Of a stretch of DNA of 64,000 bases, positions 47,535-62,695 are shown piece after piece. The stretch is taken from NCBI RefSeq assembly GCF_003546865.1, contig NZ_CP023434.1:1116001-1180000 (forward strand), read 5' to 3'. This DNA is from Suicoccus acidiformans (GTDB lineage: Bacteria > Bacillota > Bacilli > Lactobacillales > Aerococcaceae). Within the stretch, counting starts at the first letter, position 1; the number at the start of each line of letters is the position of its first letter. The notes under the pieces are model-generated. The model was not told where the DNA came from and searched no databases. It saw only the letters and a list, made by a program, of their open reading frames with translations. A program made the translations under genes and the position numbers.

Positions 47535-47613
47535 GTTGTGATATAAGGGGGAGGAGCGTAGGATAGCCTGTATTTTCGATGGAGATATAATCTAATTTAC
47601 GTTAGTTTACATA

Positions 47614-47703
47614 ATATATATTATCAGAAAAATAAAAAAGTAAAAAATAATAAAGGCTTGATACCTTAGACTACTTTTACTGGATTTTTCTGATAATATA
47701 TAT
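47614..47703. repeat. Long perfect inverted repeat, MITE-like or terminator-like
   Basis: The 20-nt arm at 47614-47633 is perfectly complementary to 47684-47703 (core TTATCAGAAAAAT / ATTTTTCTGATAA), separated by 50 nt. The AGTAAAA/TTTTACT pair extends the inner part. Confidence 0.55.
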
Positions 47704-47985
47704 CATTAAACGATATGTTTTAGTTGTTTGATTTTTCGCTCGATTCTAAATCATTAGAATGTCTTGGCGTCTCCGAATGGCTCGCTGTTGTAAATAGGTC
47801 TTGGCACATTCATAGCTGATCTAGGTGAGTATCTATTTACCACCAATATCTTTCACAGCTTTGCAGCTTGTTTCGACAAGCAATAGTCCGTCCTTTCCGA
47901 CCGACTGCTTATTCCTACTTAAAAAGCTAAAGGCTAATTTAAATAGAGGGGAGCTAACCCCTTTTCAGCAGCTTCCCAGACTGCT

Positions 47986-48673
47986 CTAGGTTGTCAATGA
48001 GCGATTGAGGTTTCCCTCTACCCTGATTATACCATGTATATTTTTGTTGTCCATACCTTTTTGAACATTCGTTCCCTTTTTATTTATTTTCAATAAATCT
48101 ATAAGAAATTCAGATGTTGTATAAGTGCTATTTTCATTCATCAAATCAAGAACTCTAGTTCTTGAATAAGCATCTATAGCTGTGATTTGATAGTATCGTT
48201 TATGGTTACTGGCAAAACCTATAGAATGAACAGGAACGTACTTCACATCGATTTGAACTAATTCTCCTGGATAGGAATAGTTGGGTTTATTTTTTTCTTG
48301 ATTCGCCTTTTTTCTTTTTAGAAGGAGGTTTTAAGTTCATTTTCCGTATTTGACGACACATAGAATCATAGCTTCTAGTATAGCCCTTATCCCTACATTT
48401 ATGATAGACTTGGGCTAATCCTCGATGCCTATGGTATCGATAGTTATGCTTGATTAACTCTAATTCAGTCTGTGTGTGCTGATTAGGATGAGATTTAGGG
48501 CGAGTTGACTTCTTTCGAAGGGATTCAATCGTCCCATCGTATCGCTTCCGCCATCTTTGAACATATTGACGGGATGTGTGATACTTTCTCGCTGCAAGAG
48601 CATTATTATTCACTTTTATAGCATACTTAACAATTCGTTCGCGATGTTTCATTCCTTCTGTTATAATAGACAT
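47986..48673 (-). pseudogene. Truncated IS481/IS3-like DDE transposase
   Basis: Minus strand. ATG 48673 opens a 128-codon frame with a helix-turn-helix (ALAARKYHTSRQYVQRWRKRY) and STRPKSHPNQHTQTE. The frame breaks at an A7 run (48290-48296). In the -1 frame the DDE domain starts (ELVQIDVKYVPVHSIG, AIDAYSRTRVLDLM, HSTYT-like) but ends in unrelated sequence after about 48100, so the second and third acidic residues are missing. A7 could be a programmed slip site, but the truncation makes the element dead. Confidence 0.75.
48058..48100. repeat. 43-bp direct repeat, copy 1
   Basis: Same orientation and, apart from one extra T, the same sequence as 48775-48818. It contains the near-palindrome GAACATTCGTTC. 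It sits where the transposase remnant loses its homology. Confidence 0.8.
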
Positions 48674-48774
48674 ATGAGAGATCCTCCTTGGATGATTTTT
48701 GATTGCACATCTATCATACCAAAGGAGTCTCTTTTTTTGTTTGTTTTATGTCGCAAATGTATTATCTCCTAATA

Positions 48775-48818
48775 TTTTTGAACATTCGTTCCCTTTTTAT
48801 TTATTTTTCAATAAATCT
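48775..48818. repeat. 43-bp direct repeat, copy 2
   Basis: Covers the last codons and 3' flank of the HTH gene at 48797-49108 and abuts the 5' flank of the transposase remnant. Confidence 0.8.
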
Positions 48819-49108
48819 TGAGACTCTCTATAAGCTTCAAGGAAGTTTAAATAGTTGACAATATCTTGATAGTAAAAAATATAATGTTGTGTTTGCTTAT
48901 GCGTTGTATACTTATACAGGGGTTCAGAGATTCGCCCTGATTTTACCAGTCGTTTCAGATGGGAAGTGTTAATGTCTAAAATTTCTGAAGCTAGTGTTTG
49001 GTTAACCGTGTATTCATTTAAGAGGGAATGTATCAAATCTTTTCTTTCCTCTGTTGATAATAATGCAATGTCTGACTTTAGTTTGATAAGGCTTCTTTTC
49101 TTTGACAT
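48797..49108 (-). CDS. Small helix-turn-helix DNA-binding protein
   Basis: A 103-aa protein with an excisionase/MerR-like helix-turn-helix (TVNQTLASEILDINTSHLKRLVKSGRI, about 34-60) followed by YYQDIVNYLNFLEAYRES. Its ATG at 49108 lies 95 nt inside the end of the recombinase-like gene, in another frame, with AAGGAG 10 nt upstream. Such a long overlap suggests coupled expression. Its last codons form one copy of a 43-bp direct repeat. Function unknown; DNA binding is likely. Confidence 0.65.
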   Translation of the reverse strand: MSKKRSLIKLKSDIALLSTEERKDLIHSLLNEYTVNQTLASEILDINTSHLKRLVKSGRISEPLYKYTTHKQTQHYIFYYQDIVNYLNFLEAYRESQDLLKNK

Positions 49109-49973
49109 TTTCGTTATTCTCCTTAATCTTAAATGTTTTAGTTGAAAGTCTACTATTGACCCTCATTAGATTTACTTTTTCTTTTACTGAATGAACGTAT
49201 CCTGGGGTAAAAGGCATGAATTCAGTCACTCTTTTAATATCGGTAATCCCTACATAATCTCTAACAGCAAGTATGTTTTTTGATCTATCAAGAAAATCGA
49301 TAATAAACTGATTACGAGCAAGTCTGGGAGTGATGTGTATATTGTGTTCGATATTTAGTTTTTTAAACAGATACCATATCTGATCACTAGAAATTGCCTT
49401 CCCCTTTTTGCTGAATAAAGGTTCATTACTTTCCTTCCTAATAATTAATCGATTAATTTTATTCCTTAATTCCCCTTTGAAATCAATCCTAACTTGCGAG
49501 TAGGGATAGTTGATCATTAAATAGCTCTCTTTCTTATTAAAGTTTGACACTTTGATTGAACTAATTGTACTTCCCTTTAATCCATGGTAGCTGATTAGGT
49601 ATACGATGATAGAAGTTAGGTCATCATCTATATCTTTGGATAGACGCCGTAGAATTTCTGCGTGTTTCCCGTTAGGTTTTTTTGGTAAATAATAGCAATA
49701 GTTGTGATGGATATAGTCCAAACCTTTCAGGATCTGCCTATCGTGATATAATCCTAAATATTTTATAAAGTTTTTTAAAGCGCTTTTCATGGCATTTATG
49801 GATCGGTTAGAGATATTTTTGTTAATCCACCTTGAAAACAATTTATGCAGCCTTTTTCTAATCGGTAAGTTATGATCAGTTTCTATAAACTCTTTTGCTA
49901 CTCTAGTATAAAGCCTGATTGTATGCTTTGAATAGTTATTCTTAATCATATAGTTATAGTAATCTGTAAGCAT
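49014..49973 (-). CDS. Tyrosine-recombinase-fold protein lacking catalytic residues
   Basis: An intact 319-aa frame with a SAM-like N-terminal core-binding domain (1-95) and a catalytic-domain-like half. Aligned to integrases, GLR becomes GLK, HxLRH becomes RLARN (only the second Arg kept), LGH becomes VGI, and the nucleophile Tyr position holds Phe (about 252, VTEFMPF). It therefore should bind DNA but not cleave. The C-terminal 54 residues are basic and overlap the HTH gene. An extended -10 box TGA-TATTAT lies at 49992-50000. Possibly a domesticated regulator or accessory factor. Confidence 0.65.
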   Translation of the reverse strand: MLTDYYNYMIKNNYSKHTIRLYTRVAKEFIETDHNLPIRKRLHKLFSRWINKNISNRSINAMKSALKNFIKYLGLYHDRQILKGLDYIHHNYCYYLPKKPNGKHAEILRRLSKDIDDDLTSIIVYLISYHGLKGSTISSIKVSNFNKKESYLMINYPYSQVRIDFKGELRNKINRLIIRKESNEPLFSKKGKAISSDQIWYLFKKLNIEHNIHITPRLARNQFIIDFLDRSKNILAVRDYVGITDIKRVTEFMPFTPGYVHSVKEKVNLMRVNSRLSTKTFKIKENNENVKEKKPYQTKVRHCIIINRGKKRFDTFPLK

Positions 49974-50239
49974 TTTATCACCTTCTGATCAATAATATCA
50001 CAGAATTTTTATTGGTATTTCTTGCTTGTTTCTTCTGTAGGTGACTTTAAGTATGCTTATGTTTTTAAGAATAGGTTCTTTTTAAGAGGCTGAACGATAT
50101 TTCTAGGTAGCTATCGATTTAAATAAGGATCAAATGAGGACTGGATGCTAAATAAAAATGAATACTCTTTCTTTAAATTCCTTTGTTTGTTATACAAACT
50201 TAATAAATGTCATCATTTTGTAACATTAAATTCTATACT
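49974..50239. other. Intergenic region upstream of the recombinase-like gene
   Basis: About 265 nt without a gene. It holds the extended -10 box for the minus-strand gene and a small GTTTGT/ACAAAC hairpin around 50188-50202. Confidence 0.45.
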
Positions 50240-50334
50240 GAATGCCCTTTTTATCTGTTTTTTGCATAAAGGAACCTCTTGCCACGCTAGCAAGAGGTTA
50301 AATAATTATTGGATGTAGAGATCTAGAACGGCTT
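50240..50334. repeat. 95-bp direct repeat, copy 1
   Basis: Nearly the same as 55718-55812. It contains the hairpin AACCTCTTGCCA/TAGCAAGAGGTT and the last codons (AVLDLYIQ-type) of the beta-lactamase-like fragment on the minus strand. Confidence 0.8.
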
Positions 50335-50512
50335 TTCCAAAATGATTAAAGGCAGGAGGTTGTTGTGATTCACGTCCATTTTCTGACATTACAATTAATG
50401 AGAATGTTCCTTTGTTTGTTTTGAGCATAGCTGCATCCCCTAATACGCCGTAGTTTGCAAATTGGCCAGATTTGCTAAAAACATCCACAGTATTAGGGAG
50501 AAAAGATGCCAA
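50306..50512 (-). pseudogene. C-terminal fragment of a serine beta-lactamase-like hydrolase
   Basis: 68 codons showing the KSG box (VFSKSGQFANYGVLGDAAM) and the strand FSLIVMSENG, typical of the C-terminal part of class-A-like beta-lactamase/serine hydrolase domains. The N-terminal part with the SxxK serine is missing; it ends at about 50490 where IS1182-like sequence begins. A hairpin terminator follows at 50272-50299. Confidence 0.75.
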
Positions 50513-50860
50513 AGAAAATCAACGTGAGGTCTATTTCTTTGATGTGGAGAAATGTAAGATATGTCCAATTCAAGAAGATGTTATAAAGTAGGCGCGAAGT
50601 CCAAATCATATTCTGTAACCATTCAAAGTAACTTACATCGACATCAAGCGAATTTCCAGGAAACAGATCGATTTAAAGAGAAGGCTAAGATGCGCTATAT
50701 GATTGAGGCCAAGCATGATGAATTAAAGAACCGACATGGTATGAAACAAGCCAAAAGTGTCGGTTTATTAGGCGTGACTTTACAAGTAGGTGCAACTATA
50801 TTCATAACGAATATGAAGCGAATAATCAAATTAAAGGAAGAAAAAGAAGCAAATAAGTAA
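50487..50860 (+). pseudogene. IS1182-family transposase C-terminal remnant
   Basis: Reads REVYFFDVEKCKICPIQED then, after a frameshift, CYKVGAKSKSYSVTIQSN, RFKEKAKMRYMIEAKHDELKNRHG and LGVTLQVGATIFITNMKRIIKL, the usual end of IS1182-type transposases. The N-terminal two thirds are gone. Confidence 0.8.
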
Positions 50861-50867
50861 AAATAAT

Positions 50868-50920
50868 AGAGGCAATGAGTCACACGATTGAATTTGTGAA
50901 ACTCATGCTCTCTTTTTTTT
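50868..50920 (+). terminator. Hairpin after the IS1182 remnant
   Basis: AGAG-GCA-ATGAGT pairs with ACTCAT-GC-TCTCT and is followed by eight T residues. It could be the IS end or a terminator. Confidence 0.6.
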
Positions 50921-50965
50921 ACGATTGTTGGGTCCCGCTCATAGAAATACACGTGAGGTTTATCA

Positions 50966-51172
50966 GCAGTCTCGTCCGAAAACTGCCTATTTTTATCTTT
51001 CTGCACCTTTGCTATGGTCTTTCTTATTTGACTTAGCTTTGTCATCTATCTTAAAGTTTTATTTTCCCTAATATGGACTTTTTATCTTTATTTTGACTCT
51101 TTACTTGTTCTTTTGCTTTTAAAAGCTTAGAAGACAAAATACGAACATTTTTATGTTCCTTTCCGTTGTTGT
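50966..51172. repeat. About 205-bp direct repeat, copy 1 (left of the ABC cassette)
   Basis: Highly similar, same orientation, to 53863-54066. It contains the 3' end of a minus-strand reading frame and the palindrome GAACATTTTTATGTTC. Confidence 0.8.
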
Positions 51173-51345
51173 AAATACTTGTTTTTACTTGTCCAAATTT
51201 TTTAACAATATCTCCTTGTTTTAGGTTCTCTAAATCTTTTGTATTATCTCCATAGGATAAACAATTAGTGTAAGCATTGTTCCTATCGTCATCTTTTGCT
51301 AAATCTATTACATTTTCATAATATTGTTCCTATTGCCAAGTAAGT
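51051..51345 (-). pseudogene. Fragment of a mobilisation/plasmid-type protein (OB-fold-like)
   Basis: Readable minus-strand frame without start: EQYYENVIDLAKDDDRNNAY, LSYGDNTKDLENLKQGDIV and NNGKEHKNVRILSSKLLKAKEQ. The GDIV..FGQVKTS..NNGKEHKNVRI pattern looks like an OB-fold. I cannot name the family with confidence. A 2-nt deletion near the end relative to the second copy shortens this copy's tail. Confidence 0.5.
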
Positions 51346-51388
51346 TGTAATAGTTTATTTATTTTTCAGTTGTCATTTTATTTAAAAA

Positions 51389-51487
51389 TTACTCATTATC
51401 TTTTTTATTTTTCAGCCACAAATAAATTAATCTAATTATTGGAATTGCAATTAAAATATACACCCATACTGTAGGTATTTTACCCAT
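51389..51487 (-). CDS. 32-aa single-helix membrane microprotein
   Basis: MGKIPTVWVYILIAIPIIRL plus a YLWLKNKKDNE tail: one transmembrane helix and a charged end. AAGGGGGG lies 8 nt before the ATG at 51487, and the gene begins 14 nt after the DUF3592 gene stop, so it is probably the last gene of the GntR/ABC operon. No homologue recognised. Confidence 0.6.
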   Translation of the reverse strand: MGKIPTVWVYILIAIPIIRLIYLWLKNKKDNE

Positions 51488-51501
51488 ATCCTATACCCCC
51501 C

Positions 51502-51879
51502 TTAAAGTAAGTTAAATTTACCAACAATAAATAACACAACAGAAACTGCGCACAGCACAAAGGCTCTTGTTAGCGAAAAACTATATATTTTTTCAGGATC
51601 TTTCTTGCTATATTTTATTTTCTTTATATCTCCCATTTCCATGCTCATAGGCACTTGAATTTTATTTTTTGATACATAATTCTTCCCATTTATTGAATAT
51701 TCAAATTGTGCCCATTTTGAATTGCCTTTTTTTACTGATTCAGGATTAGGTTGCCATATTGATATTACCTTACCGACAGTATATTCAGTATTATTTCTCA
51801 ATATATAACTTCGCCCTAAATCTACTAATCCAAAAACTAATAATATTGTCGCTGAAATATAAATAAATTGTTTTTCCAT
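51502..51879 (-). CDS. DUF3592-like membrane protein
   Basis: 125 aa with a transmembrane helix at each end (about 5-25 and 100-122) and a soluble beta-rich middle (YTVGKVISI, SKWAQFEYSINGKNY, PMSMEMGDIKKIKYSKKDPEKIYSF). This layout fits the DUF3592 family. It follows the ABC permease gene by about 30 nt in the same direction; a role alongside the transporter is inferred. Confidence 0.65.
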   Translation of the reverse strand: MEKQFIYISATILLVFGLVDLGRSYILRNNTEYTVGKVISIWQPNPESVKKGNSKWAQFEYSINGKNYVSKNKIQVPMSMEMGDIKKIKYSKKDPEKIYSFSLTRAFVLCAVSVVLFIVGKFNLL

Positions 51880-51912
51880 GAAATTTCCTCCTAACTAATA
51901 AAAATTATGTTT

Positions 51913-52545
51913 TTAATATTGTTTTTTCTCCATAATTTTAATTGATATTTTTATGGAAATTCCAAGGACTATAAGGAATAAAACTATTATACATATGGTT
52001 GTTATATTAAATGAATATAGGCTGAATGTATCAATTAAATTTGGTATGATATCCAACTTTTCTTTTAGTAAATTAGATATGGCAAATATTATCAAAAATG
52101 TTATCATAACAATAATTCTGCCCTTTTCCGCACCAAATTTAAGAATGAAAGGTAACTGAATTGCAGGCAATAAATTTATTGATACAATGCTCAAAAGTGA
52201 TAATATTATTATTTTATCTAAACCAAGACTTCCTTCTGTCAATAGATATATAAAAATAATAATCGATGCAACTAAACTAAATGCAAATGCAAAGAATAAT
52301 TTGCTAAAAACATATGAACTTTTTTTAATTGGCATTGAAAAAGCAAACTGTTCAAATTTAGATTGTACATCGTAACCAAAAGCTATAGAATTTAAAATTA
52401 ATGGCATGAAAGCACACATCAAGGGAATCATAATTAATGTCTTACTATATATGGCATAAGCACTTAGTGCAATACATATTACAAAGGATAATAGAAATGT
52501 CTTTTTCAAAGTTGCTATATCTTTTATAATTAAAGCGGTCATCAT
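51913..52545 (-). CDS. ABC-2 type permease
   Basis: A 210-aa membrane protein with six hydrophobic segments and the small-permease motif FGYDVQSKFEQFAFSMPI..SSYVFSKL, as in permeases paired with YtrA-type regulators. ATG 52545 overlaps the ATPase stop (ATGA), with AAAGGAG 7 nt upstream. It should form the exporter with the ATPase. Substrate unknown; bacitracin- or peptide-stress export is common in such sets. Confidence 0.8.
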   Translation of the reverse strand: MMTALIIKDIATLKKTFLLSFVICIALSAYAIYSKTLIMIPLMCAFMPLILNSIAFGYDVQSKFEQFAFSMPIKKSSYVFSKLFFAFAFSLVASIIIFIYLLTEGSLGLDKIIILSLLSIVSINLLPAIQLPFILKFGAEKGRIIVMITFLIIFAISNLLKEKLDIIPNLIDTFSLYSFNITTICIIVLFLIVLGISIKISIKIMEKKQY

Positions 52546-53390
52546 TTATTCTCTCCTTTCACAAAGTATATCATTATATCCTCAATTGACGGCTTTTGTA
52601 ATGTTATTCCATTTGGAACAAGATTTCTCTTAACCAATAGTTGTTGACCAAAAGAATGCACTCTTCTTCCTACAATTGCTTCATCATCAATGTTTTCCAC
52701 TTCTTTATCTGATAAGTTACAAAGCGCATAATTCTCTTCTAGTTCCTCTTTTGTTTCAAAGAATAAAACTTTACCTTCATGTATAAAAGCAATATAATCA
52801 GCAATTTTTTCTAAATCTGATAAAATATGTGATGATATTAGTATTGTGTGATTTTCATCTTGCATATATTCCAAAAGTAAATCTAATATTTCTTCTCTTA
52901 CAATAGGATCCAATCCACTTGTCGGTTCATCTAATATAAGAATTTCAGCATTATGTGATAAAGCTATTGCTATTGAAAGTTTCATCCTCATTCCTCGAGA
53001 ATAATTTTTTATCATTTTTTCTGATGGCAAATTAAACTTGTCTTTCAACTTATTAAAAAAAACTTTATCCCATTTTGAATAAACTCTAGAACAAAATCTT
53101 TCAACATCTAATAATGTCATCTCATCAGGAATTAACAAATCATCAAACACTACACCTAAACTATCTTTTATTTGAATAGTGTTATAATCTTGATTATCAA
53201 ATATTTTAATAATTCCAGAATCCTTGTTTAACAAGCCCAATAATAATTTTATGGTTGTACTCTTCCCAGCACCATTTTGACCTATAAATCCAACAATTGT
53301 TCCTTTTGGAATAGAAATATTTATTGGTCCTAATTTAAAATCGTTAAATTCTTTTACTAAATTCTGAATCTCAATTGCGTTATTACTCAT
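52542..53390 (-). CDS. ABC transporter ATP-binding protein
   Basis: 282 aa from ATG 53390 (GGAGGG 5 nt upstream); the ATG at 53405 would extend it into the regulator gene. Walker A GQNGAGKST, signature NYSRGMRMKL, Walker B ILILDEPTSGLD and the switch His in LISSHILSD are all intact. The C-terminal accessory domain is about 70 aa. It overlaps both the regulator and the permease genes, so the three are translated from one mRNA. Confidence 0.93.
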   Translation of the reverse strand: MSNNAIEIQNLVKEFNDFKLGPINISIPKGTIVGFIGQNGAGKSTTIKLLLGLLNKDSGIIKIFDNQDYNTIQIKDSLGVVFDDLLIPDEMTLLDVERFCSRVYSKWDKVFFNKLKDKFNLPSEKMIKNYSRGMRMKLSIAIALSHNAEILILDEPTSGLDPIVREEILDLLLEYMQDENHTILISSHILSDLEKIADYIAFIHEGKVLFFETKEELEENYALCNLSDKEVENIDDEAIVGRRVHSFGQQLLVKRNLVPNGITLQKPSIEDIMIYFVKGENK

Positions 53391-53763
53391 AATTACCCTC
53401 CACATAACTTTTTAGCATATTTATCAATTCCTCAATCGATATATCTGCGATTTCTGACAATTCAACTGATTTTTGTAACATTGATTCAATTTCCTTTAAG
53501 TATTCTTCACGTATAAGTTCTTTATTTTGGGGAGCAACAAAATTTCCCTTACCTTGTACCGAATTAATGAAACCATCCATTTCCAATTCATCAAAAGCTC
53601 TTTTAGCTGTTAGCATACTTATTCTTAATTCTTTTGCTAAAAACCTTATCGAGGGTAGCTGTTCCCCAACTACTAGCTTTCCAGAAATTATTTGTGCCTT
53701 AATTTGATTTTTGATTTGTAAATATATGGGATCATCACAGGAATTATTTATTTGTATATCCAT
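53383..53763 (-). CDS. GntR/YtrA-family transcriptional regulator
   Basis: 126 aa from ATG 53763 (AGGTGG 5 nt upstream). A winged helix occupies residues 5-75 (PIYLQIKNQIKAQIISGKL, GEQLPSIRFLAKELRIS, AKRAFDELEMDGFI, GKGNFV). The short C-terminal dimerisation helix is typical of YtrA regulators, which repress their own ABC operon. An operator with 10-bp arms overlaps the promoter upstream. Confidence 0.9.
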   Translation of the reverse strand: MDIQINNSCDDPIYLQIKNQIKAQIISGKLVVGEQLPSIRFLAKELRISMLTAKRAFDELEMDGFINSVQGKGNFVAPQNKELIREEYLKEIESMLQKSVELSEIADISIEELINMLKSYVEGNYE

Positions 53764-53790
53764 TTTAACCACCTACTGTTATTTCTGTTT

Positions 53791-53830
53791 TAACTGTTAT
53801 TATTATGATATAACAGTTAAGTTTTGTCAA
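53791..53830 (-). promoter_or_regulatory. Promoter and operator of the GntR-ABC operon
   Basis: Minus-strand promoter: TTGACA (complement 53825-53830), 17-nt spacer, CATAAT (53802-53807). The perfect inverted repeat TAACTGTTAT-N9-ATAACAGTTA (53791-53819) covers the spacer and -10, so binding of the GntR protein would block transcription. Confidence 0.8.
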
Positions 53831-53849
53831 CTTTCCATAGAAGTAATTT

Positions 53850-53882
53850 TAAAAAAATAAAGGCAGTCCGAAGACTGCCGAT
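53850..53882 (-). terminator. Minus-strand terminator after the OB-like fragment, copy 2
   Basis: GGCAGTC-TTCG-GACTGCC read on the minus strand, followed by TTTATTTTTTT. Confidence 0.75.
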
Positions 53883-54066
53883 ATTTACCTCTCTGCACCT
53901 TTGCTATGGTCTTTCTTAGTTGACTTAGTTTTGTCATCTGTCTTAAAGCTTTTTATTTGCCCTAATAAGGACTTTTTATCTTTATCTTGACTCTTTACTT
54001 GTTCTTTTGCTTTTAATAGCTTAGAAGACAGAATACGAACATTTTTATGTTCCCTTCCATTGTTGC
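53863..54066. repeat. About 205-bp direct repeat, copy 2 (right of the ABC cassette)
   Basis: Partner of 50966-51172 in the same orientation. Homology stops abruptly near 54066. Confidence 0.8.
53885..54066 (-). pseudogene. C-terminal fragment of the mobilisation-type protein, copy 2
   Basis: Reads GNNGREHKNVRILSSKLLKA, KSQDKDKKSLLGQIKSFKTD and DHSKGAER. The N-terminal part is missing. The tail is longer than in copy 1 and probably closer to the original. Confidence 0.5.
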
Positions 54067-54158
54067 CAATAAATTAATTTATTAAAATATTTATTTTGTT
54101 TATATGCAACTTGTTGAAGTAAGCCAGCCAAACTGGTAAACAGAAAGGAAGGATAACA

Positions 54159-54494
54159 ATGTTTGCTTATTACATGGAAAGACCGAATACCCCTGCTCCA
54201 ATCATTACTGAAACAGAAAATTTTATGGTTAAACATCATCTAGAGCATTTGATTCCTACAATTGAAGAACTATGGTATTTTTTAAGAGCTTATAAAGAAC
54301 CGCCCCACTTTTTTAATTGTTATGCTTGTTTATTATTTGCTAATTTGGTTAATGGGTTAGTGTTGGAATATGACTTAAAAGAAGAGGATTTTGACTATTA
54401 TATCAATGGTTTAGATACGCATTTATATTATCAAGGAGAAGAGGATTTTTTTAATAAGCTTGAAGAAATCATGGTAAAAAAGCAATGTGTTTAA
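54159..54494 (+). CDS. Unknown 111-aa protein linked to rpn, copy 1
   Basis: No family recognised. Begins MFAYYMERPNTPAPII; rich in aromatic and acidic residues, probably helical (EHLIPTIEELWYFLRAYKE, FANLVNGLVLEYDLKEEDF). AAGGAAGG precedes ATG 54159. A hairpin terminator follows, then rpn 81 nt downstream. The second copy at 62847 differs by one residue (Glu18 to Lys). Repeated linkage to rpn is due to the duplication, so a functional link is only a hypothesis. Confidence 0.65.
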   Translation: MFAYYMERPNTPAPIITETENFMVKHHLEHLIPTIEELWYFLRAYKEPPHFFNCYACLLFANLVNGLVLEYDLKEEDFDYYINGLDTHLYYQGEEDFFNKLEEIMVKKQCV

Positions 54495-54500
54495 CAATCA

Positions 54501-54535
54501 TTCACTTCTTGCCACGGTGGCAAGAAGTGAAAAAT
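54501..54535 (+). terminator. Terminator after the 111-aa gene, copy 1
   Basis: TTCACTTCTTGCCA (54501-54514) pairs perfectly with TGGCAAGAAGTGAA (54518-54531). Confidence 0.75.
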
Positions 54536-54575
54536 TCATAGAACCATGGTAAAATAATAATTAAGAGGTGACGAC

Positions 54576-55421
54576 ATGGAAATTACACCTACACATGATT
54601 TACTGTTTAAGAAGATTTTTGCGAGTGAATCGAATAAACATATTCTAAAACATTTTGTAGAGGATATTTTAGAGATTCAACTTGAAACACTGCAGATTAT
54701 GAACCCTTATCATATTAGTGAATTTAAGAATATAGATGAGGACAATATTGACTATACAGAAGTTGATATTCTTGCACAAACAGAGGGCGGTTAACGGATC
54801 ACAATTGAATTACAATTAGCTAATCATAAAAGTTTTTTAGAGCGTACCCTGTACTACGCCTGTAAATCCTATATTGATAATTTCAATAATCCTGAACTAA
54901 TGACGAATCGCTATAAATATTCTAGCTTACGGAACACGTATGCCATTAGTATTTTAGGATTTCATCTTTTTGACAATACCTTCCCAACGGTTACCCATTT
55001 TGATTTTAAAGAAAGAGAGACTCATTTCTTGTTAAGTGAAGCGAGGATGCACACGATTGTTCTTTCTTATTTTACATTATCGAATGGCAATTTTAATAAT
55101 AGACAAGTTGAATTTTGGCAAAAATATTTTACAAATCAGGAAATTACAGATGAGATGCCGACTTATATTCAAGAAGCCAAACAATTAGCCCATCAAAATA
55201 ATTTGAGCAAGGAGGAATTAGAGATGGCAGAAGCACTATCTAAACGTCAACAGATTCAAATGGCAAGAGAAGAGTTTGTTCGTGATGAGGGAATTGAACA
55301 AGGAAAAGAAGATTTGATTTTCCTTATGTATAAAAAAGGAACTGAATTAACAGAAATTGTTAAATTGACCGATTATACAGAAGAAGAGATTAAAAGGATT
55401 TTGAAAAAATATAATCAATAA
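54576..55421 (+). pseudogene. rpn family PD-(D/E)XK nuclease gene with in-frame stop, copy 1
   Basis: Rpn/PDDEXK_2 (recombination-promoting nuclease, putative transposase) gene of 281 codons. It starts MEITPTHDLLFKKIFASES. TAA at 54792-54794 replaces what is probably a sense codon (CAA is one change away) between the catalytic Asp strand (TEVDILAQ) and the ExQ strand (RITIELQLA). The same frame continues intact to 55421. The active nuclease cannot be made without read-through. A C-terminal internal start is intact (see 55224). AGAGGTG precedes ATG 54576. Confidence 0.88.
55224..55421 (+). CDS. Candidate internal product of rpn (65-aa C-terminal domain, RpnS-like)
   Basis: ATG 55224 is in the rpn frame and has a consensus Shine-Dalgarno AAGGAGG (55209-55215) 8 nt upstream, unusual inside a coding region. 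The product MAEALSKRQQIQMAREEFV... is a charged helical peptide with GIEQGKED and an EEEIKRILKKYNQ end. In E. coli RpnA an internal start yields a C-terminal inhibitor of the nuclease. The same site is kept in copy 2. Expression is an inference. Confidence 0.55.
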   Translation: MAEALSKRQQIQMAREEFVRDEGIEQGKEDLIFLMYKKGTELTEIVKLTDYTEEEIKRILKKYNQ

Positions 55422-55427
55422 GCATTA

Positions 55428-55462
55428 GCGCCCTACTTCTTTATTGAAGTGAGGGTGTTATT
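55428..55462 (+). terminator. Terminator after rpn copy 1
   Basis: CCCTACTTC pairs with GAAGTGAGGG (one bulge/wobble), then TTATTTT. Confidence 0.65.
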
Positions 55463-55483
55463 TTACGATAGTTAAATCAACTC

Positions 55484-55717
55484 ATTGTACTACGCCTGTA
55501 AATTCTATATTGATAATTTCAATAATCCTGAACTGATGACGAATCGCTATAAATATTCTAGCTTACGGAACACGTATGCCATTAGTATTTTAGGATTTCA
55601 TCCTTTTGACGATACCTTCCCAACGGTTACCCATTTTGATTTTAAAGAAAGAGAGACTCATTTCTTGTTAAGTGAAGCGAGGATGCACACGATTGTTCTT
55701 TCTTATTTTACATTACC
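55484..55717 (+). pseudogene. Internal rpn fragment
   Basis: About 78 codons of the rpn middle part (LYYACKFYIDNFNNPELMTN to LSYFTLPN), nearly the same as 54849-55082 but with several substitutions. No start, no nuclease core. It ends exactly where the 95-bp repeat begins. Confidence 0.85.
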
Positions 55718-55812
55718 GAATGCCCTTTTTATCTGTTTTTTGCATAAAAGAACCTCTTGCCAGCGTGGCAAGAGGTTAAATAATTATTGGATGTAGAGAT
55801 CTAGAACGGCTT
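55718..55812. repeat. 95-bp direct repeat, copy 2
   Basis: Second copy of 50240-50334, here with a perfect hairpin CCTCTTGCCA/TGGCAAGAGG and the AVLDLYIQ-type tail on the minus strand. Confidence 0.8.
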
Positions 55813-56066
55813 CGTACTCTCCAATTAATTCACTGTAGCTTGGATTGTAATAAAAGCCGTCAATAATTCGCTTGATTTTTTCATCATCTACTAGTCATTT
55901 CAATACCTGTCTAACTGTAGTATTTGATGCAATATCTAAAAAAGTCATTTGCAAAAAACACTTTATGTGAGTCAAATCTTTTTATTTTGTCTGATATTCT
56001 TTCCATATATGAACTCATTGCCTCTTTTGATTTATCTAATAATTCATTTGAGATTGATCTGCCCAT
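55813..56066 (-). pseudogene. Decayed DUF6088/AbiEi-like antitoxin N-terminal region
   Basis: Minus strand from ATG 56066: MGRSISNELLDKSKEAMSSY, KVFFANDF, then after a T-run slip LDIASNTTVRQVLK, a TGA where Arg is expected, and LVDDEKIKRIIDGFYYNPSY and ELIGEY. This is the winged-helix start of DUF6088/AbiEi-type antitoxins (type IV AbiE-like systems). The rest is replaced by the 95-bp repeat, giving a chimeric end. No AbiEii-like toxin gene is seen nearby. Confidence 0.6.
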
Positions 56067-56081
56067 AAAACTCCAATCTAA

Positions 56082-57551
56082 TTATAGTCCTAATACTTCT
56101 TTATTCATGATGTTAATAGCTTCTTGTTCTTGTTTATAAGCTTTATATCTTAATTCATTCGCCTTAAAAGCAATATTATTTATTAGTTCAATTTTTTTAA
56201 TATCTTTTAAAAATGGTACAGATACTTTTTTCAGTTGAATAGGCTCTATAGCGTTCACAACACCACCATATTTTTGTCTATATATTAGTTTTTCCCCATA
56301 TATAGAATTTAAAAAAATATATATATAACCTACATAGTCTTTTTCACATTGCATTTGAATTAAATTATCACTTATAGCACATTTTCCTATTTGATGAGGC
56401 ATAGCCATCATTACAGATCCTAATGTACCTCTTGATGGTAATATAATTGAATTTTCTTTTATGAGTAATTCTTTTTCCAACCTATTTTTATGAGCTTTTT
56501 TGGATAAGTATTTTCCTGTTTCTGACTTTAACTGAAATAAATCTTTACCTCCTATGAATGGAACTCCATGTTCTTTTGCAACATATATTCTAGTGAATCT
56601 TCCAGGCAAAATAATATCTTTTACTAAAGCTTTGTCTTCTAGACACTTTAAATTGGCATGTTTACTCATATGTTTTTCTATAACATCTATCAATGGAATA
56701 TGATAATTTCCTTCAAGTCTTCCATTTAAATCACTTAGCTTAGTTGAAAAGGAATTAATATTTTTACTATAAGAAAAAGCTTCTTTCTTTAATTCTTCAA
56801 TTGGAGGTAATTCTAGCTCATCAATCATAATTTTAGTTGCTTCATCAATAAGTTTATTTGATTCATCTCTTTTAGCATATGATTGAAGAATTAAATCGTG
56901 AATTTTTTTCTTAATCATATCTGGAGGACTAGGAATAGGCATGTTTTTTAATGCTTCTGGTTCAATTTCTAATATTACTGATCCAAATTTCTCTGCATGC
57001 AATAAATTTTGTGCAATATCGGTTTTAAGATAGGCATATACATATCCAGGGAATTTATCAATAACTAACCTTATTGCATGTTCACTAACTAAATATTTTG
57101 CTAATGACTTATTTACAAAAGTTACATTACCTATAGTTCCAGATCGAGATATCAAAATTATTTCTTCACTCAAAGAAAGTTGTTTAACCATAGGATTATC
57201 GGGAGAAACATATTTTATTGGTTTAGGATAAATATCTAACATTTCTGAACTTCCAAGAAACCCTATAGACGTACTATCTATATCTCTTAAATAATTTCTT
57301 TTTGCACGTGGACCATAGTAGCAATCATTAAACCCAATATTATCTGTTCCTAAAGTTATTACTTCATATTTACTATTATTTAATAGCTGTAATGCATGAT
57401 CTCTATCTATATTAAATGTTGATGCTTCTAGTCGTTTATCTCTAGTTAAAATATCGCTCAAAGTAACACTAGACCAGTTAATATCATCCTTAGGTACTTC
57501 AACTATTTCTATTAGTTCTTTTTCTAATTTTTTAGCTGCTGAATTTACCAT
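56082..57551 (-). CDS. Restriction-modification specificity subunit (HsdS-like)
   Basis: 489 aa with two target-recognition halves: 1-250 ending in KKKIHDLILQSYAKRDESNKLIDEA helix, and 265-489 ending in a similar helix (AFKANELRYKAYKQEQEAIN). Motifs ISRSGTIGNV and LPSRGTLGSV are typical TRD loops. ATG 57551 overlaps the methylase stop (ATGGTAA). The frame is intact, unlike its partner subunit, so it is probably an orphan specificity protein now. Confidence 0.85.
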   Translation of the reverse strand: MVNSAAKKLEKELIEIVEVPKDDINWSSVTLSDILTRDKRLEASTFNIDRDHALQLLNNSKYEVITLGTDNIGFNDCYYGPRAKRNYLRDIDSTSIGFLGSSEMLDIYPKPIKYVSPDNPMVKQLSLSEEIILISRSGTIGNVTFVNKSLAKYLVSEHAIRLVIDKFPGYVYAYLKTDIAQNLLHAEKFGSVILEIEPEALKNMPIPSPPDMIKKKIHDLILQSYAKRDESNKLIDEATKIMIDELELPPIEELKKEAFSYSKNINSFSTKLSDLNGRLEGNYHIPLIDVIEKHMSKHANLKCLEDKALVKDIILPGRFTRIYVAKEHGVPFIGGKDLFQLKSETGKYLSKKAHKNRLEKELLIKENSIILPSRGTLGSVMMAMPHQIGKCAISDNLIQMQCEKDYVGYIYIFLNSIYGEKLIYRQKYGGVVNAIEPIQLKKVSVPFLKDIKKIELINNIAFKANELRYKAYKQEQEAINIMNKEVLGL

Positions 57552-58145
57552 GATATTCCCTCATTAATCTTCCATTTTCTAAAAATATCTGGCACAAGAA
57601 TTGTTTGATCGTCAACAATTTTCTCTCTACTTTCCATTTGGGCTGTTTTATCTCCTGCTGATGTTTCATCTAATCTATAGACATTTTGTTTTTCAGGAAC
57701 CATTATCTCATTTCCTTCATTATCTCTTTTAAAAAGGGTGTTTCCTCTTTTATCATGACCAATTTTGTCAACTATTGCCATATAAATGTTGTAATCAGCC
57801 ATTTGTCCAGTAGATTCTTCTTTGGATGTTTCTTCTTTTGTTTTCTTTTGTAAGATTAACACTGATGTTTGAGTACCATTTCTTGGTTGGAATGTATCTT
57901 CGTGTAAATCGATACTTGCAATAATCTTTGTATTTTTAATTAGCCACTCTCTTATATAGCCAGTGCCTGGTGAACCCAATAGAGCATCAGGAAGAACTAT
58001 ACCCATTCTTCCACCTGGTTTTAAAAATTGATAGCATCTTTCTATAAATAATATTTCAGGGGAAACAGATGATTGGTACCTTTCAGTCATTGTCCATTTA
58101 CCTGTTTTTTTATCCTGATTCCATATTTGTAAATGCTAAACTAAA
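57545..58145 (-). pseudogene. C-terminal part of the RM nuclease-methyltransferase subunit
   Basis: From the IS21 junction: HLQIWNQDKKTGKWTMTERY, SSVSPEILFIERCYQFLKPG, GRMGIVLPDALLGSPGTGYI and HEDTFQPRNGTQTSVLILQKK, the second half of a HsdM/N6-methyltransferase domain. An ATG at 58090 opens the frame, but this part alone lacks the SAM-binding and NPPF motifs, so it is inactive. Confidence 0.85.
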
Positions 58146-58242
58146 GTTACCAGTTTCTGCTAATTAAGTTTTTCCACTTTTGCTACTCATTTACTGGATC
58201 ATCTTGTACAATATTATTTTCAATATTGAATGAGGTGAATCT

Positions 58243-59799
58243 ATGATAGGAGCAAAATTAATGCTATATATTCAAGTTAAGCAGCTTTATGAGAAAAAGA
58301 TGAAGATTTCTCAAATAGCTAAGACACTCGGTCTATCCAGGCCAACAGTCCGGAAATATTTAAGTATGTCCTTTGAGGAAGCAGAAGACTGGAGTCATAA
58401 GCAAGGAAAGCGTAAGAAAATTCTTGATGAGTACCAAGAGTGGATACTCGAATGGTTGAGGGAATACCCTCATCTTAGCAGTGCTCAAGTCAAGGATTGG
58501 TTATTGGAACGCTTTCCGGATTTGAAAGTCGGTGATAGTACTGTGCGACTATATGTCACGCACCTTAGAGAGGTACATCAAATACCTAAGCAGGAAAGTC
58601 CGCGACAGTATCAAGCAGTGCCCGAACTGCCAATGGGCCAACAAATACAAGTAGATTGGGGTGAGAGTACACAGAAGACAGATAAAGGAACAAGCATTAA
58701 GCTATACGTAATGTGCTTTATTCTGTCGCATTCTCGATACAAATATATGTATTGGCTAGACCGTCCCTTCACAACTCAAGATGCCATTCGTGGCCATGAG
58801 TTAGCCTTCCAGTACTTTGGTGGACGAACTGAAGAGATTGTCTATGACCAAGACCGGATCATATCTGTATCAGAGAATGCGGGAGATTTAATATTAACAT
58901 GTCGCTTTCAACAGTATGTCAATGAAAGAGGCTTTAAAGTCAGCTTGTGTCGTGCAGCGGATCCTGAATCTAAAGGAAAAATTGAAAGTATGGTGAAATA
59001 TGTAAAACAAAACTTTGCTGATAGTCGCGTATATTCTAATCTTGATAATTGGAATAAACGTGCCATCCGATGGCTCGAGCGAACAGGCAATGAGAAGAAA
59101 CATGAAGTAACGAAAAAAAGACCCAGAGAAGTATTCGCTACCGAAAAAGAATACTTAATCCAGGTCCCTCAATTAAACACATTTCCAGATGTGATTAACA
59201 CAAGTATAACAAGAAAAATTAGTAAAGACAATACAGTCATGTATAAGAGTAATCGATATTCCGTTCCGCTTGGAACGTATGGCGCATTGCCTCACAATCA
59301 ATGCTTAGTGTCACTGACTGATGAAGAACTATCAGTGATACATCCTGTTACACAGGAAGTGATAGCCACGCACAAATTAAATCAAGGAAAAGGAGCATTA
59401 ATCCAAAAGAAAAGCCACTGTCGTGACAAAAACCGAAGTTCACAACATTTGAAAGAGTCATTACTAAAGCAGCTTCAAACAGATACGATTGCGACTCGCT
59501 ATGTGAAGACCGTTTGTAAGAACTATCCTCGTTATCAAATTGATCAACTGACGATGATTCAATCGGTTGTAGATGACGATATAAACATCGCTATTAAAGG
59601 GATACACCAATGTGACAAGCTCAACTTATACAGCGCAAATGATCTACGCTTGATAGTTCAATCTTTAAAGCAGCGCGAAGCATCTGAACGCATTGATATT
59701 GATGGATCTAGTGATAATACAATGAGGGATACCTATTATGTAACGACTAGACCCATGTCAATATATACAGACATTCTGAAAGGGAGTGAACACAAATGA
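58243..59799 (+). CDS. istA: IS21-family transposase IstA
   Basis: 518 aa. An N-terminal helix-turn-helix (KISQIAKTLGLSRPTVRKYL) is followed by the DDE domain: QVDWGE (first Asp), YDQDR (second Asp) and DPESKGKIESMVKYVK (Glu). The C-terminal beta-barrel (SITRKISKDNTVMYKSNRYSVP type) is complete. The stop overlaps istB ATG (ATGA). Appears functional. Confidence 0.95.
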   Translation: MIGAKLMLYIQVKQLYEKKMKISQIAKTLGLSRPTVRKYLSMSFEEAEDWSHKQGKRKKILDEYQEWILEWLREYPHLSSAQVKDWLLERFPDLKVGDSTVRLYVTHLREVHQIPKQESPRQYQAVPELPMGQQIQVDWGESTQKTDKGTSIKLYVMCFILSHSRYKYMYWLDRPFTTQDAIRGHELAFQYFGGRTEEIVYDQDRIISVSENAGDLILTCRFQQYVNERGFKVSLCRAADPESKGKIESMVKYVKQNFADSRVYSNLDNWNKRAIRWLERTGNEKKHEVTKKRPREVFATEKEYLIQVPQLNTFPDVINTSITRKISKDNTVMYKSNRYSVPLGTYGALPHNQCLVSLTDEELSVIHPVTQEVIATHKLNQGKGALIQKKSHCRDKNRSSQHLKESLLKQLQTDTIATRYVKTVCKNYPRYQIDQLTMIQSVVDDDINIAIKGIHQCDKLNLYSANDLRLIVQSLKQREASERIDIDGSSDNTMRDTYYVTTRPMSIYTDILKGSEHK

Positions 59800-60554
59800 C
59801 ACAGTCTGTCAGTGACCTTCAAGAGAGCTTCAAGCAGCTGAAATTAGGTGAAACAGCGCAACAGTTACCGATACTGTTAAGGCAAGCAGAGCAAGACAAC
59901 TTGACCTATTTGGAATTTTTAACGGAGTTGGTAAGATACGAACAAACACAACGAGACGCCAAGCGTGTAGAACGGTATATGAAATGGGCACAATTTCCCT
60001 ATCATAAACGTTTGTCACAATTTGATATTCAGGCTCAACAGAGTCTAAGCCAGCGACAATTAAAGCAATTAGGCGAACTAACTTGGATTGATGACCAGTT
60101 CAATTTGATTTTACTGGGACCTCCAGGCGTTGGCAAGACGGCTTTAAGTGTAGGCCTTGGCATTGAGGCGATTGAACAAGGCTATCGAGTGATGTTCGTG
60201 ACTATGGGGCAATTAATGACCTATTTAAAAACTGAAGAATTCACACGCAAATCGCAAATTCAACTGAACCGCATACGCCAGGCCGATTTAGTCATCGTTG
60301 ATGATTTAATGTATATGGCGATGGAAACTTATGAAGCGAACTTGTTTTTCCAGTTGATAAGTCAATTATATGAACATTCATCGCTAATAATTAGCTCAAA
60401 TAAAGCCCCAGATCACTGGGGTGAGCTAATTGGTGATCCTGGCATTACAACGGCTATATTAGACCGAATTTTACACAGAGTAGAGGTGATTAATCTAAAC
60501 GGTGATAGTTACCGCATGAAAAATAATCAGAAAATTTTTTCCGCTGAAACTTAG
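59796..60554 (+). CDS. istB: IS21-family helper ATPase IstB
   Basis: 252-aa AAA+ ATPase related to DnaC. Walker A GPPGVGKTALSVGL (about 108-121), Walker B LVIVDDLMYM, sensor ISSNKAP. It loads onto DNA and directs IstA to target sites. GAAAGGGAGTG precedes ATG 59796. Full length. Confidence 0.95.
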   Translation: MTQSVSDLQESFKQLKLGETAQQLPILLRQAEQDNLTYLEFLTELVRYEQTQRDAKRVERYMKWAQFPYHKRLSQFDIQAQQSLSQRQLKQLGELTWIDDQFNLILLGPPGVGKTALSVGLGIEAIEQGYRVMFVTMGQLMTYLKTEEFTRKSQIQLNRIRQADLVIVDDLMYMAMETYEANLFFQLISQLYEHSSLIISSNKAPDHWGELIGDPGITTAILDRILHRVEVINLNGDSYRMKNNQKIFSAET

Positions 60555-60608
60555 CAGAAGTGGAAAATATTATTTAGCAAAAAGTGGAAAATTTTACTTG
60601 ACGGTAAC

Positions 60609-61304
60609 AATATTCTGGCAAGCTCAAATTGAGATAATATAGCATGATCTTTTATTGGGATTTTACTACCAAATGGTGGATTAGTTACAATTACATCAAA
60701 AAATCCTATATCATATTGATTTATAATTAATTTTTTATCAATTTGTAAAGCTGACGATAATCTTGTTTTAAAATCATCTGTCCATTCATGAGGAGGTAAG
60801 AGGGAATTTGTTTGAAGAATATTTCCGCTACCATCATTATTCATAACCATGTTCATCTTTGTCGCTTTTACCAAATCTGGATTTATATCAAATCCAAAAT
60901 AGTTATTTTTTGCCATATCAGAAATTTTATCTTGGAACGCTTTTTTTTCATAATCATTCCAGTTTTCTTTATCTTTTCCAATATATTTTGTAAATTCTGA
61001 CCTTAATTGCTTCATGGCATGAGTCATAGCAGTTACAAGAAATCCCCCCGTTCCACAAGATGAGTCCAAAACTTTCTCATCAATAGTAGGATTAATCATT
61101 TCAACAACCATCTGCATTACATTTCTAGGTGTGAAAAATTCACCACGATCGCCCCTTAGGTTAGCACCAACTATTTCTTCATATGCTTTTCCCTTTATGT
61201 CTATTCTTGTATTCAATAAACTATATTTTTGTAATTCACTTACAATATAGGATAGTGTTCTTGGGTGAAGATTTATTCCATCGTTCGCTTCAAAAATTTT
61301 TGCA
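60609..61304 (-). pseudogene. Methyltransferase core of the RM fusion subunit (SAM and NPPF motifs)
   Basis: In the frame downstream of the A7 slip: KIFEANDGINLHPRTLSYIV, RIDIKGKAYEEIVGANLRGD, EFFTPRNVMQMVVE, motif I LDSSCGTGGFL and catalytic NPPFGSKIPIKD. The host sequence ends at LSQFELAR where IS21 is inserted; an IS-derived tail closes the frame at 60551. N6-adenine methylation is the family reaction, but the domain is cut. Confidence 0.85.
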
Positions 61305-62055
61305 TTTTTTTCTCTTTTTTTACTCTTTCAAATATTTTTTCTATCCTATTTTTTACAGTTAATTGGCCGTCTCCATTAGATCTTTCTTCACTTGTTGCAT
61401 AAAACTCTAATGGTTTTGGTATATTTCTCTCATCTTCAATTTTACAAAAAATAACTTTTAAAAGCTCAAAAAAAGCAGGTTGTTTTTGCATTCCTTCATT
61501 CACATAAATATGGTTATGACATGTTTTGAATGTGAATAACAAATTGTCATCTGATGCGTTTTTTAGAGTTGTTCTTTTAGGTCTATTAATATCATCTAAG
61601 CTTCCATCAGCTGATGGAATGTCATTATAATCCATGAATTGTATAGATCCAGTATCATCTATATATTTTTTGAACACAAACTTTTCTTTACTATTTGTCC
61701 ACATGCCCCATTCTGCATTGGAACAGGCTGACATATATGATTTTAATTGAGCAACCCCATCTTTAGAGTTACTAGCTTCAATTTTTTCACTTTTACATTC
61801 AATAATAATTTTTATGTTTTCTTGTATTTTATCAACTTTTCCATCAGGAAATATAACTATGTCTGCTCTCTTTTTACCAGAACCAATTTGAACTGTATAT
61901 TCAATGCTTATTTGATCTCGATTATATTTATGTTCGTTTATTAGTCTTTTTTCAATAGTTTGACGTACATATTCTTCTGGCGTATCTTTTCTAAATTTTC
62001 CATCTATATAATCACATATCTTACCTTCAGGTATAACTATTACTTTTGATTCCAT
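61273..62055 (-). pseudogene. N-terminal nuclease-like domain of the RM fusion subunit
   Basis: 260 codons from ATG 62055. An HSDR_N-type PD-(D/E)XK fold is visible: KKRADIVIF (Asp65) and IIIECKSE (Glu86, Lys88). A helical linker to the methyltransferase follows. The frame slips at A7 (61305-61311 on the plus strand shows T7) just before the methyltransferase part and stops at 61273. An unbroken gene would be about 700 aa, a nuclease-methylase fusion as in BcgI-type enzymes. Confidence 0.8.
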
Positions 62056-62279
62056 TTAAAGTTCTCCTTTATTTCTTTGCAATTTAATAAGATCGCCAAC
62101 TTCGACATTTAGCGCTATACAAATTCTTGCTAATACGTCAAGATCTATTCGTTTTACTTTATTATTTACATATGAGTTTAATTGACTTCTTTGTAAATTA
62201 GCATTTTCTTCAAGCCAATTCTTGCTAATATTTTTTCATTAAGTACTTCATTTAACGTAAATATAATTTCATTGCTCAT
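62056..62279 (-). pseudogene. XRE-family regulator of the RM locus, frameshifted
   Basis: Starts MSNEIIFTLNEVLNEK at ATG 62279; after an A6 run (62231-62236) the homology continues one frame over as ISKNWLEENANLQRSQLNSY and VNNKVKRIDLDVLARICIAL, then NVEVGDLI, a typical HTH_26/controller-like XRE protein of about 74 aa. One additional A would restore it. Its stop abuts the RM start codon, so the genes are one operon. Confidence 0.8.
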
Positions 62280-62282
62280 TAT

Positions 62283-62375
62283 TGGACCCCTATATAAACA
62301 CATATATAATATCAAATAAAATAAGTTTCTACAACTGTACATATAGACAGCTCTATAAACTTATATAGCTTGTTT
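62283..62375 (-). promoter_or_regulatory. Promoter and palindromic sites upstream of the RM operon
   Basis: Minus strand: TTGTAG-N17-TATTAT candidate promoter. The palindromes TATAGA-GCTG-TCTATA and the near-palindrome AGCTCTATAAACTTATATAGCT (halves AGCTCTATA / TATATAGCT) lie just upstream and could bind the XRE regulator. Confidence 0.5.
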
Positions 62376-62581
62376 CTTTCTTAATAAAAAGGAATGTATA
62401 TCCCATGATTCTTTTGACAATTATTCTGTTTTTTTCTTTTATATAATTAATATCTTCCTTATAAATAACGCCAGTTGTATTAGTCGCTTTTGCAATCTGG
62501 TTTATGTTATTCGTTACATTTGAAATCAGCTATTGTAGATCTCTAAATAGTTCTAGGTCTACAACATAAATTTCTTTTTTC
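62353..62581 (-). pseudogene. MobC-like mobilisation protein remnant
   Basis: Minus-strand frame IYVVDLELFRDLQ-stop-LISNVTNNINQIAKATNTTG then VIYKEDINYIKEKNRI. NxNQIAKxxNTTG is the core of MobC-type relaxosome proteins. An in-frame TAG (62530-62532) and loss of the N-terminus make it inactive. It is evidence that a mobilisable plasmid or element once lay here. Confidence 0.65.
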
Positions 62582-62601
62582 TAATACACATTCTCTAAAG
62601 A

Positions 62602-62655
62602 TTACATGACGAATCGCTATAAATATTCCAGCTTACGAAATACCTATTCCATTAA
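62602..62655 (+). pseudogene. Short rpn fragment
   Basis: About 18 codons MTNRYKYSSLRNTYSIN matching rpn residues near 109-125, with substitutions. Fourth rpn trace in the window. Confidence 0.7.
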
Positions 62656-62695
62656 TATAGTGAATACGGTTGACTTGCTCCGCAAGTCATTTGAT

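Follow-up and report, generated by a model that had tools for sequence, protein, structure and literature searches.

The chromosomal dif site of Suicoccus acidiformans marks one end of a low-GC island, and beside it stands a module composed of a gene for an Xer-like protein which has lost most of its catalytic residues, an overlapping gene for a small excisionase-like HTH protein, and a putative structured noncoding RNA. Dimers of circular chromosomes are resolved at dif. We regard it as very probable that the island is an element integrated at dif, with the module at one of its ends. Positions given below are those of the window, i.e. the whole analysed stretch of 64,000 nucleotides, unless another sequence is named. 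We found no report of a dif-linked Xer-like/HTH/RNA module among the open-licence PMC papers that our searches listed.

The Xer-like protein has a recombinase fold and lacks most catalytic residues

The initial annotation described an intact 319-aa frame with integrase architecture, and this description holds. The Xer-like gene lies at 49014-49973 on the minus strand, and its product matches the Pfam integrase domain (20.9 bits, gathering cut-off 27.1) and a SAM-like domain (19.5 bits, cut-off 22.3), both below threshold. Its top NCBIfam match is XerA (E 8.5e-18; 64.9 bits, below the cut-off of 220), and the family models group the protein with XerA, XerC and XerD, under their cut-offs. Structural superposition, which had been suggested as a check, gave a consistent picture. 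The AlphaFold model (mean pLDDT 71.9, falling below 50 after residue 255, i.e. of low confidence around Y259) matched XerA and XerH in Foldseek (best E 1.8e-9) as well as in VIA-align (XerA: Z 16.2, rmsd 10.0, 250 residues aligned; XerH: Z 15.9, rmsd 8.7, about 250 residues). The fold of an active Xer/tyrosine recombinase, with its SAM-like and catalytic domains, is present in this protein according to Pfam, AlphaFold, Foldseek and VIA-align.

To read the catalytic columns we aligned the window frame with 53 other Xer-type frames, in which some genes are present twice (e.g. L005 = L013) and from which L006 (no recombinase frame) and the repeat loci L008, L009, L043 and L046 were omitted. The R/H/R/H/Y set is retained in 50 of these 53 frames; the window protein carries K133/R217/R220/I243/F252 at the same columns. 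The four substitutions named previously (the first Arg, the His of HxxR, the His of LGH and the nucleophilic Tyr) are thus confirmed as K133, R217, I243 and F252. The accompanying statement that all catalytic positions were changed went too far, however, as the second Arg (R220) is kept; from the set R, K, H, R, H, Y it is the only residue retained. The GKGxK hairpin motif is also gone from the window protein in this alignment.

A first protein profile, run against 395 genomes of the order, placed the family in four genomes: the window's own, Hutsoniella sourekii (G019; 74% identity to the window protein), Ruoffia tabacinasalis (G031; 28%) and G246 (22%). It needs to be mentioned that this profile was insensitive: it missed a fifth member, recovered through the RNA search described below, which was among the same 395 genomes (G009; 266 aa, 18% identity), and non-detection elsewhere does not equal absence. 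Arg I, His II and His III are missing and Arg II is invariant in all five members. The Tyr-to-Phe change that was to be looked for in homologues occurs in three of the five (window, Hutsoniella and Ruoffia), while G246 and G009 keep the Tyr. A Tyr in the nearby TPGYVHS motif had been pointed out as a potential replacement. This residue, Y259, is situated seven positions past the Tyr column and is conserved in precisely the three members with Phe (G246 has Arg there), but its use as an alternative nucleophile is unlikely, because Arg I and both His are absent, a judgement tempered by the low confidence of the model in this region.

When the profile search was widened to the class (398 genomes, E 1e-14), the window gene was recovered along with eight Xer-type genes; these eight, from seven genomes, have the full catalytic set. 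Plasmids, phages and two viral-contig scans yielded no protein relative, except that the G246 protein weakly matched two plasmid proteins that are annotated as recombinases, and PADLOC had no match for the Xer-like protein. In another family of the order, a separate Xer-like frame (L034 1408-2304) has several catalytic positions altered and the Tyr kept; this is perhaps a separate degenerate Xer lineage.

The Xer-like gene overlaps a gene for an excisionase-like protein

The HTH gene (48797-49108, minus strand) encodes a MerR-like winged-HTH, excisionase-like protein of 103 aa. As originally annotated, it overlaps the Xer-like gene by 95 nt in a different reading frame, with its own AAGGAG preceding the ATG. 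The overlap is 107 nt in Hutsoniella and again 95 nt in Ruoffia. The same overlapping gene, sought in homologues, is therefore found in three of five members, and no HTH gene was seen adjoining the Xer-like gene in G246 or G009.

The HTH protein matches an excisionase in PHROG (E 8.9e-5) and mad1 in PADLOC (E 0.011). Its model (pLDDT 88.5) consists of an HTH, a wing and a long helix; the top Foldseek row was RacA (E 0.024), with BldC among the next and nothing at E ≤0.001. A small winged-HTH protein encoded beside att is what one would look for in an excisionase or RDF, and the HTH gene answers to it, with fold matches that are weak. A profile search with the HTH protein found it in six of the 395 genomes, namely the three gene pairs, G091, G150 and G001. 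In G150 the relative is separated from dif by about 100 bp and has no RNA beside it, and G001 holds a 52-aa HTH remnant 3.4 kb from dif.

Both genes are under selection

Comparison of the window with Hutsoniella, a single genome pair, gave a dN/dS of 0.126 for the non-overlapping part of the Xer-like frame (285 codons, dS 1.14) and of 0.017 for that of the HTH frame, and both genes are therefore under selection. Within the overlap (about 30 codons) the ratios are 1.1 for the Xer-like frame and 0.10 for the HTH frame, which suggests that the HTH gene carries along the last 30 residues encoded by the Xer-like frame. It could be supposed that the Xer-like gene is a pseudogene, the decaying integrase of a stranded element, since its catalytic residues are gone and a relic of an IS481-like transposase stands in the locus. 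This explanation is extremely improbable in view of the two dN/dS values, the frames that stay open, the identical losses in divergent homologues and the 95-nt overlap which is the same in the window and Ruoffia; neutral decay, which had been named as something that would refute a selected role, was set aside accordingly. The earlier proposal that the gene is selected for a non-cutting role is supported by the substitution ratios and by the same Arg and His losses in four homologues. The initial annotation did not extend to the features that unite the family, namely the RNA and dif on the 3' side of the gene pair and the island which begins there.

A putative structured noncoding RNA lies between the two genes and dif

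Beyond the HTH gene we found a putative structured noncoding RNA, whose presumed extent is 47635-48020 on the minus strand (start and end are both inferred) and whose conserved core at 47798-47912 (minus strand) contains three helices with compensatory changes. The ORF list of the window has no long open frame in the presumed extent. DNA identity between the window and Hutsoniella is 79% and extends about 500 bp beyond the Xer-like and HTH genes. Upstream of the RNA stands a promoter-like TGGACA-16-TATAAT with an extended -10 (48026-48053, minus strand), the same in Hutsoniella and scoring 11/12 in both, which is to be taken as a consensus match only, the number of promoter-like sites in the two RNA regions being not above that in shuffles. 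A terminator-like hairpin between the RNA and dif was found by the scan in Hutsoniella only; in Ruoffia and G246 the scans gave neither a promoter-like site upstream of the core nor a terminator.

The RNA stretch folds better than its shuffles in the window (z -6.0) and in Hutsoniella (z -8.4), partly owing to a 3' inverted repeat, and only weakly better in Ruoffia (z -1.96) and G246 (z -1.57). A core pattern, CGGACTATNG...CTGC...GCNNTGAAAGATA, is present in all four loci, occurs once in the window and appeared in none of 100 shuffles. When the four were aligned by sequence only, both sides had changed in 8 of the 15 predicted pairs (0/500 shuffles); with twelve members, aligned by fitting to the RNA model, the figure rises to 12 of 15, with 37 cells showing such changes (0/500 shuffles). 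Rfam 15 has no match on the core: the window stretch gave one match outside it (E 2.9), matches of the Ruoffia and G246 loci at E ≤2 lie elsewhere than the RNA, and the Hutsoniella locus gave none. The RNA probably represents a new family.

The RNA model matched 17 of the 395 genomes at E ≤0.05 and 12 at E ≤1e-4. The five weaker matches excluded from the twelve (G272, G221, G010, G368 and G030; E 0.002-0.04) are surrounded by stretches in which every dif-like site has at least 8 mismatches, and in L124 a further match (E 0.056) is found at a distance of 4 kb from dif. The RNA pattern was found in no viral contigs, and neither the RNA nor the HTH-RNA DNA matched plasmids. The model also had no match in 36 genomes of the family of G150, a set with no known positive, so that little is shown by this result.

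In the window, the HTH gene and the RNA are separated by the relic of an IS481-like transposase (48101-48774, minus strand), which is missing from the Hutsoniella locus. The transposase is incomplete, and end pieces of the relic recur at several other sites in the window's genome. Two copies of a direct repeat of 43-44 bp flank it (48058-48100 and 48775-48818), a length that exceeds the target duplication typical of IS481.

The module is linked to dif

The chromosomal dif, TTTTCTGATAA-TATATA-TTATGTAAACT, lies at 47604-47631 on the minus strand and forms the junction of the island. An inverted partial dif-like copy (47686-47713, plus strand; 6/28 mismatches to the window's dif) follows 54 bp away; it has a counterpart in Hutsoniella and was not seen in Ruoffia or G246. 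The 18-bp dif core occurs as one copy per genome in 38 of 76 genomes of the bacterial family. GC skew in the window is predominantly positive up to about 43 kb; to the right of this point it becomes mixed or negative, a pattern that fits a terminus without proving one.

In all four loci (window, Hutsoniella, Ruoffia and G246) an Xer dif follows the RNA, and the inactive Xer-like gene adjoins RNA and dif in 5/5 members. Among the twelve best RNA matches, nine have dif 127-358 bp past the 3' end of the core, this end always pointing toward dif; among matches independent of model building, dif adjoins five of eight. The association with dif thus holds for both the RNA and the HTH gene in genomes other than those we started from. 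In seven of the nine loci the module is located on the side of the XerD arm of dif, the exceptions being the window and Hutsoniella, where it is on that of the XerC arm. We also compared 28 of the 35 other genomes with an exact dif core, and the RNA is beside dif in only three of these 28 neighbourhoods; it is thus not a general part of dif. Nor is the inactive Xer-like protein always present with the RNA, since four loci with the RNA beside dif (G002, G011, G071 and G047) have no such gene in the scanned stretches, the G002 contig stopping 0.5 kb further on.

Three of the twelve best RNA matches have no dif nearby. In G091 the RNA follows a RepA_N gene and an HTH relative, on a contig that has a T4SS coupling gene and no dif that we could see; in G060 a ParA gene is downstream of the RNA, and in G079 the RNA is at a contig end. 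The G091 arrangement could be taken to mean that the RNA has the leading role, either acting in cis or regulating the replication or copy number of the element, and that both proteins serve its expression or bind it. The RNA is indeed the most widespread part of the module (12 of 395 genomes at E ≤1e-4, against four family genomes reached by the first protein profile), and it has a promoter-like site upstream in the window and Hutsoniella. On the other hand, replication control alone leaves unexplained why nine of twelve RNAs lie beside dif in one orientation, and we find an RNA-centred unit decidedly unlikely.

Other genes were noticed around dif. Nine genomes of two genera (L129, L132-L139), with a dif neighbourhood that lacks the module, have a tyrosine-recombinase-like gene of 183-184 aa about 4-8 kb from dif; the one tested matches the Pfam integrase. 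Two genomes that belong to different families have genes for ABC transporter ATPases in the vicinity of the dif-linked RNA (L071 4119-5033 and L121 9476-10072), and ABC-like frames were seen by eye at 51913-53405 in the window.

Islands with plasmid genes lie between dif-like sites

The window contains the first part of the low-GC island (47632-64000), which runs to a second dif-like site outside the window (G000:C1:1216575-1216602). The island spans 52,944 bp between the two sites, which are in direct orientation, and its GC content is 0.343 compared with 0.426 and 0.423 outside. The second site has 6/28 mismatches to the window's dif, and 20 block shuffles gave 8-9 at best.

Comparison with an empty dif of the same genus covers Ruoffia. 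Ruoffia and a genome of the same genus, G088, are 91% identical exactly from dif outward, with no match on the other side over 60 columns, and the other flank of G088 resurfaces about 41 kb off in Ruoffia, beside a degenerate dif. When the outer arms of the two Ruoffia sites are combined, they give AAGTTCGATAA-TATATA-TTATGTAAACT, identical (28/28 each) to the dif of G088 and G020, two empty sites of the same genus. The far site of Ruoffia has 8 mismatches to the near site, inside the range of 10 shuffles (6-10), so the case for an island there rests on the flanks and the empty sites. A second att was not found for Hutsoniella, where the contig ends 11 kb away. The inferred element site is divergent in one of its arms, which is that of XerD in the window and that of XerC in Ruoffia.

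A domain scan of 23 proteins, a subset of the proteins of the two islands, identified ParA, ParB, RepA_N, MobL (a partial match) and Toprim in the window's island, and ParA, ParB, MobL, Toprim and a T4SS coupling protein in that of Ruoffia. ParA and ParB are near the far dif-like site in both; in the window's island about 2.6 kb, containing two additional frames, separate them from it. The recombinases among these 23 proteins were two tyrosine recombinases in the window's island and one resolvase-domain protein in Ruoffia's. Their gene content gives the islands the appearance of mobilizable or conjugative plasmids inserted at dif.

The two tyrosine recombinase genes of the window's island are found with a third frame at G000:C1:1196857-1201939 (L154:2857-7939), a group that looks Tn554-like. 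Adjacent genes encode domains of resistance type, one an aminoglycoside adenylyltransferase and one an rRNA adenine dimethylase. The island further has two near-identical copies of a 111-aa frame (54159-54494 and 62847-63182) and other frames with shared sequence at about 54900-55796.

The presence of MobL relaxase genes in both islands also bears on whether the covarying hairpins act as RNA at all. They might be folded single-stranded DNA, a structured att used at single-strand entry as is the attP of CTXphi. The two inverted dif-like copies around a hairpin in the window and Hutsoniella, 54 bp apart in the window, resemble the attP1/attP2 fold of that phage (PMC5357621). The inverted pair was not seen in Ruoffia or G246, however, the covarying core is 127-358 bp distant from dif, and the Hutsoniella region is framed by promoter-like and terminator-like sites, all of which make folded single-stranded DNA a very unlikely explanation.

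Possible control of host Xer recombination by the module

The explanation that we put forward, and to which we give roughly even chances, is that these islands are IMEX-like (integrative mobile element exploiting Xer) plasmid elements of Lactobacillales, in which the non-catalytic Xer-like protein, the Xis-like HTH protein and the RNA control integration and excision by host Xer. The host XerC and XerD would carry out the cutting at dif (a XerC-like gene with a complete catalytic set, L002, is encoded in the window's own genome), and the Xer-like protein of the element would serve as an accessory or directionality factor that binds a dif-type arm but does not cut it. By occupying the divergent arm of the element's att, this protein might permit, block or direct the reaction. 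The Xis-like HTH protein, together with the RNA made toward dif, would assist it, and integration and excision would occur only when the element allows. The part assigned to the HTH protein is suggested by its position, which is where Xis proteins stand. A more specific version, that the RNA and the inactive Xer-like protein might form an RNA-protein complex on dif-type sites which gates host Xer on mobile plasmids of Lactobacillales, seems to us unlikely.

The main rival explanation, which we consider less probable, is that the Xer-like protein is a repressor which regulates transcription of the element (its replication, its transfer or its own operon), and that dif merely happens to be near the element's control region. 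MrpR of phage SPbeta, an inactive tyrosine recombinase fold that acts as a repressor, is a direct precedent (PMC10516654); compared with Table 3 of that source, the Xer-like protein likewise has a tyrosine recombinase fold with lost catalytic residues. The protein is basic as well (63 K+R vs 28 D+E). The link to dif is nevertheless tighter than a general repressor requires, with 5/5 genes beside it, and MrpR is not among the 32 PDB sequence matches (E ≤10) of the five-member profile, although kinship below detection is possible. The VIA-align list for the Xer-like model is also without MrpR, which excludes nothing.

If control of host Xer by the module is true, a non-cutting Xer-like protein and an RNA at dif would show how Gram-positive plasmids use, and perhaps govern, this site. 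The RNA, which has no Rfam 15 match and is mostly dif-anchored, provides a marker for such dif-integrated elements.

Comparison with known systems

In the int-xis modules of phages and ICEs, which adjoin att, a recombinase gene precedes one for a small winged-HTH protein. The module described here has the same order, an Xer-like gene and then a small winged-HTH gene beside an att-type site. It differs in that the recombinase-like gene is without the cutting residues and in being directed at the Xer site of the host itself.

Elements that exploit the host Xer system at chromosomal dif include CTXphi, VGJphi, TLCphi, GGI, EludIMEX-1 and LME-1, and the GGI, 57 kb in size, carries T4SS genes (PMC5357621, PMC9765430). 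The islands resemble these IMEX in being lodged at dif and in the one divergent arm of the inferred element site, which recalls the divergent XerD arms of difGGI and of the TLCphi attP (PMC5357621). In contrast, the examples given in the available parts of PMC5357621 and PMC9765430 are Gram-negative, and those parts describe no inactive Xer-like protein with an HTH protein and a structured RNA beside dif. An element-encoded factor acting on host Xer recombination is known in XafT of TLCphi, a XerD-activating factor, to which the module can be likened by the description in PMC9765430.

The closest parallel for the Xer-like protein itself is MrpR (YopR) of the Bacillus phage SPbeta, which has a tyrosine recombinase fold, has lost the catalytic Arg and His, does not recombine, and represses the phage by binding a repeated element (PMC10516654). 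The Xer-like protein also keeps the recombinase fold without the catalytic Arg and His, and under selection. MrpR retains Tyr and Lys, however, whereas the window protein has neither; it is absent from the PDB sequence matches of the Xer-like profile at E ≤10, and no link to dif or to an RNA is described in the available part of PMC10516654. The Xer-like protein would join MrpR as a relative of tyrosine recombinases that has turned to a non-cutting role.
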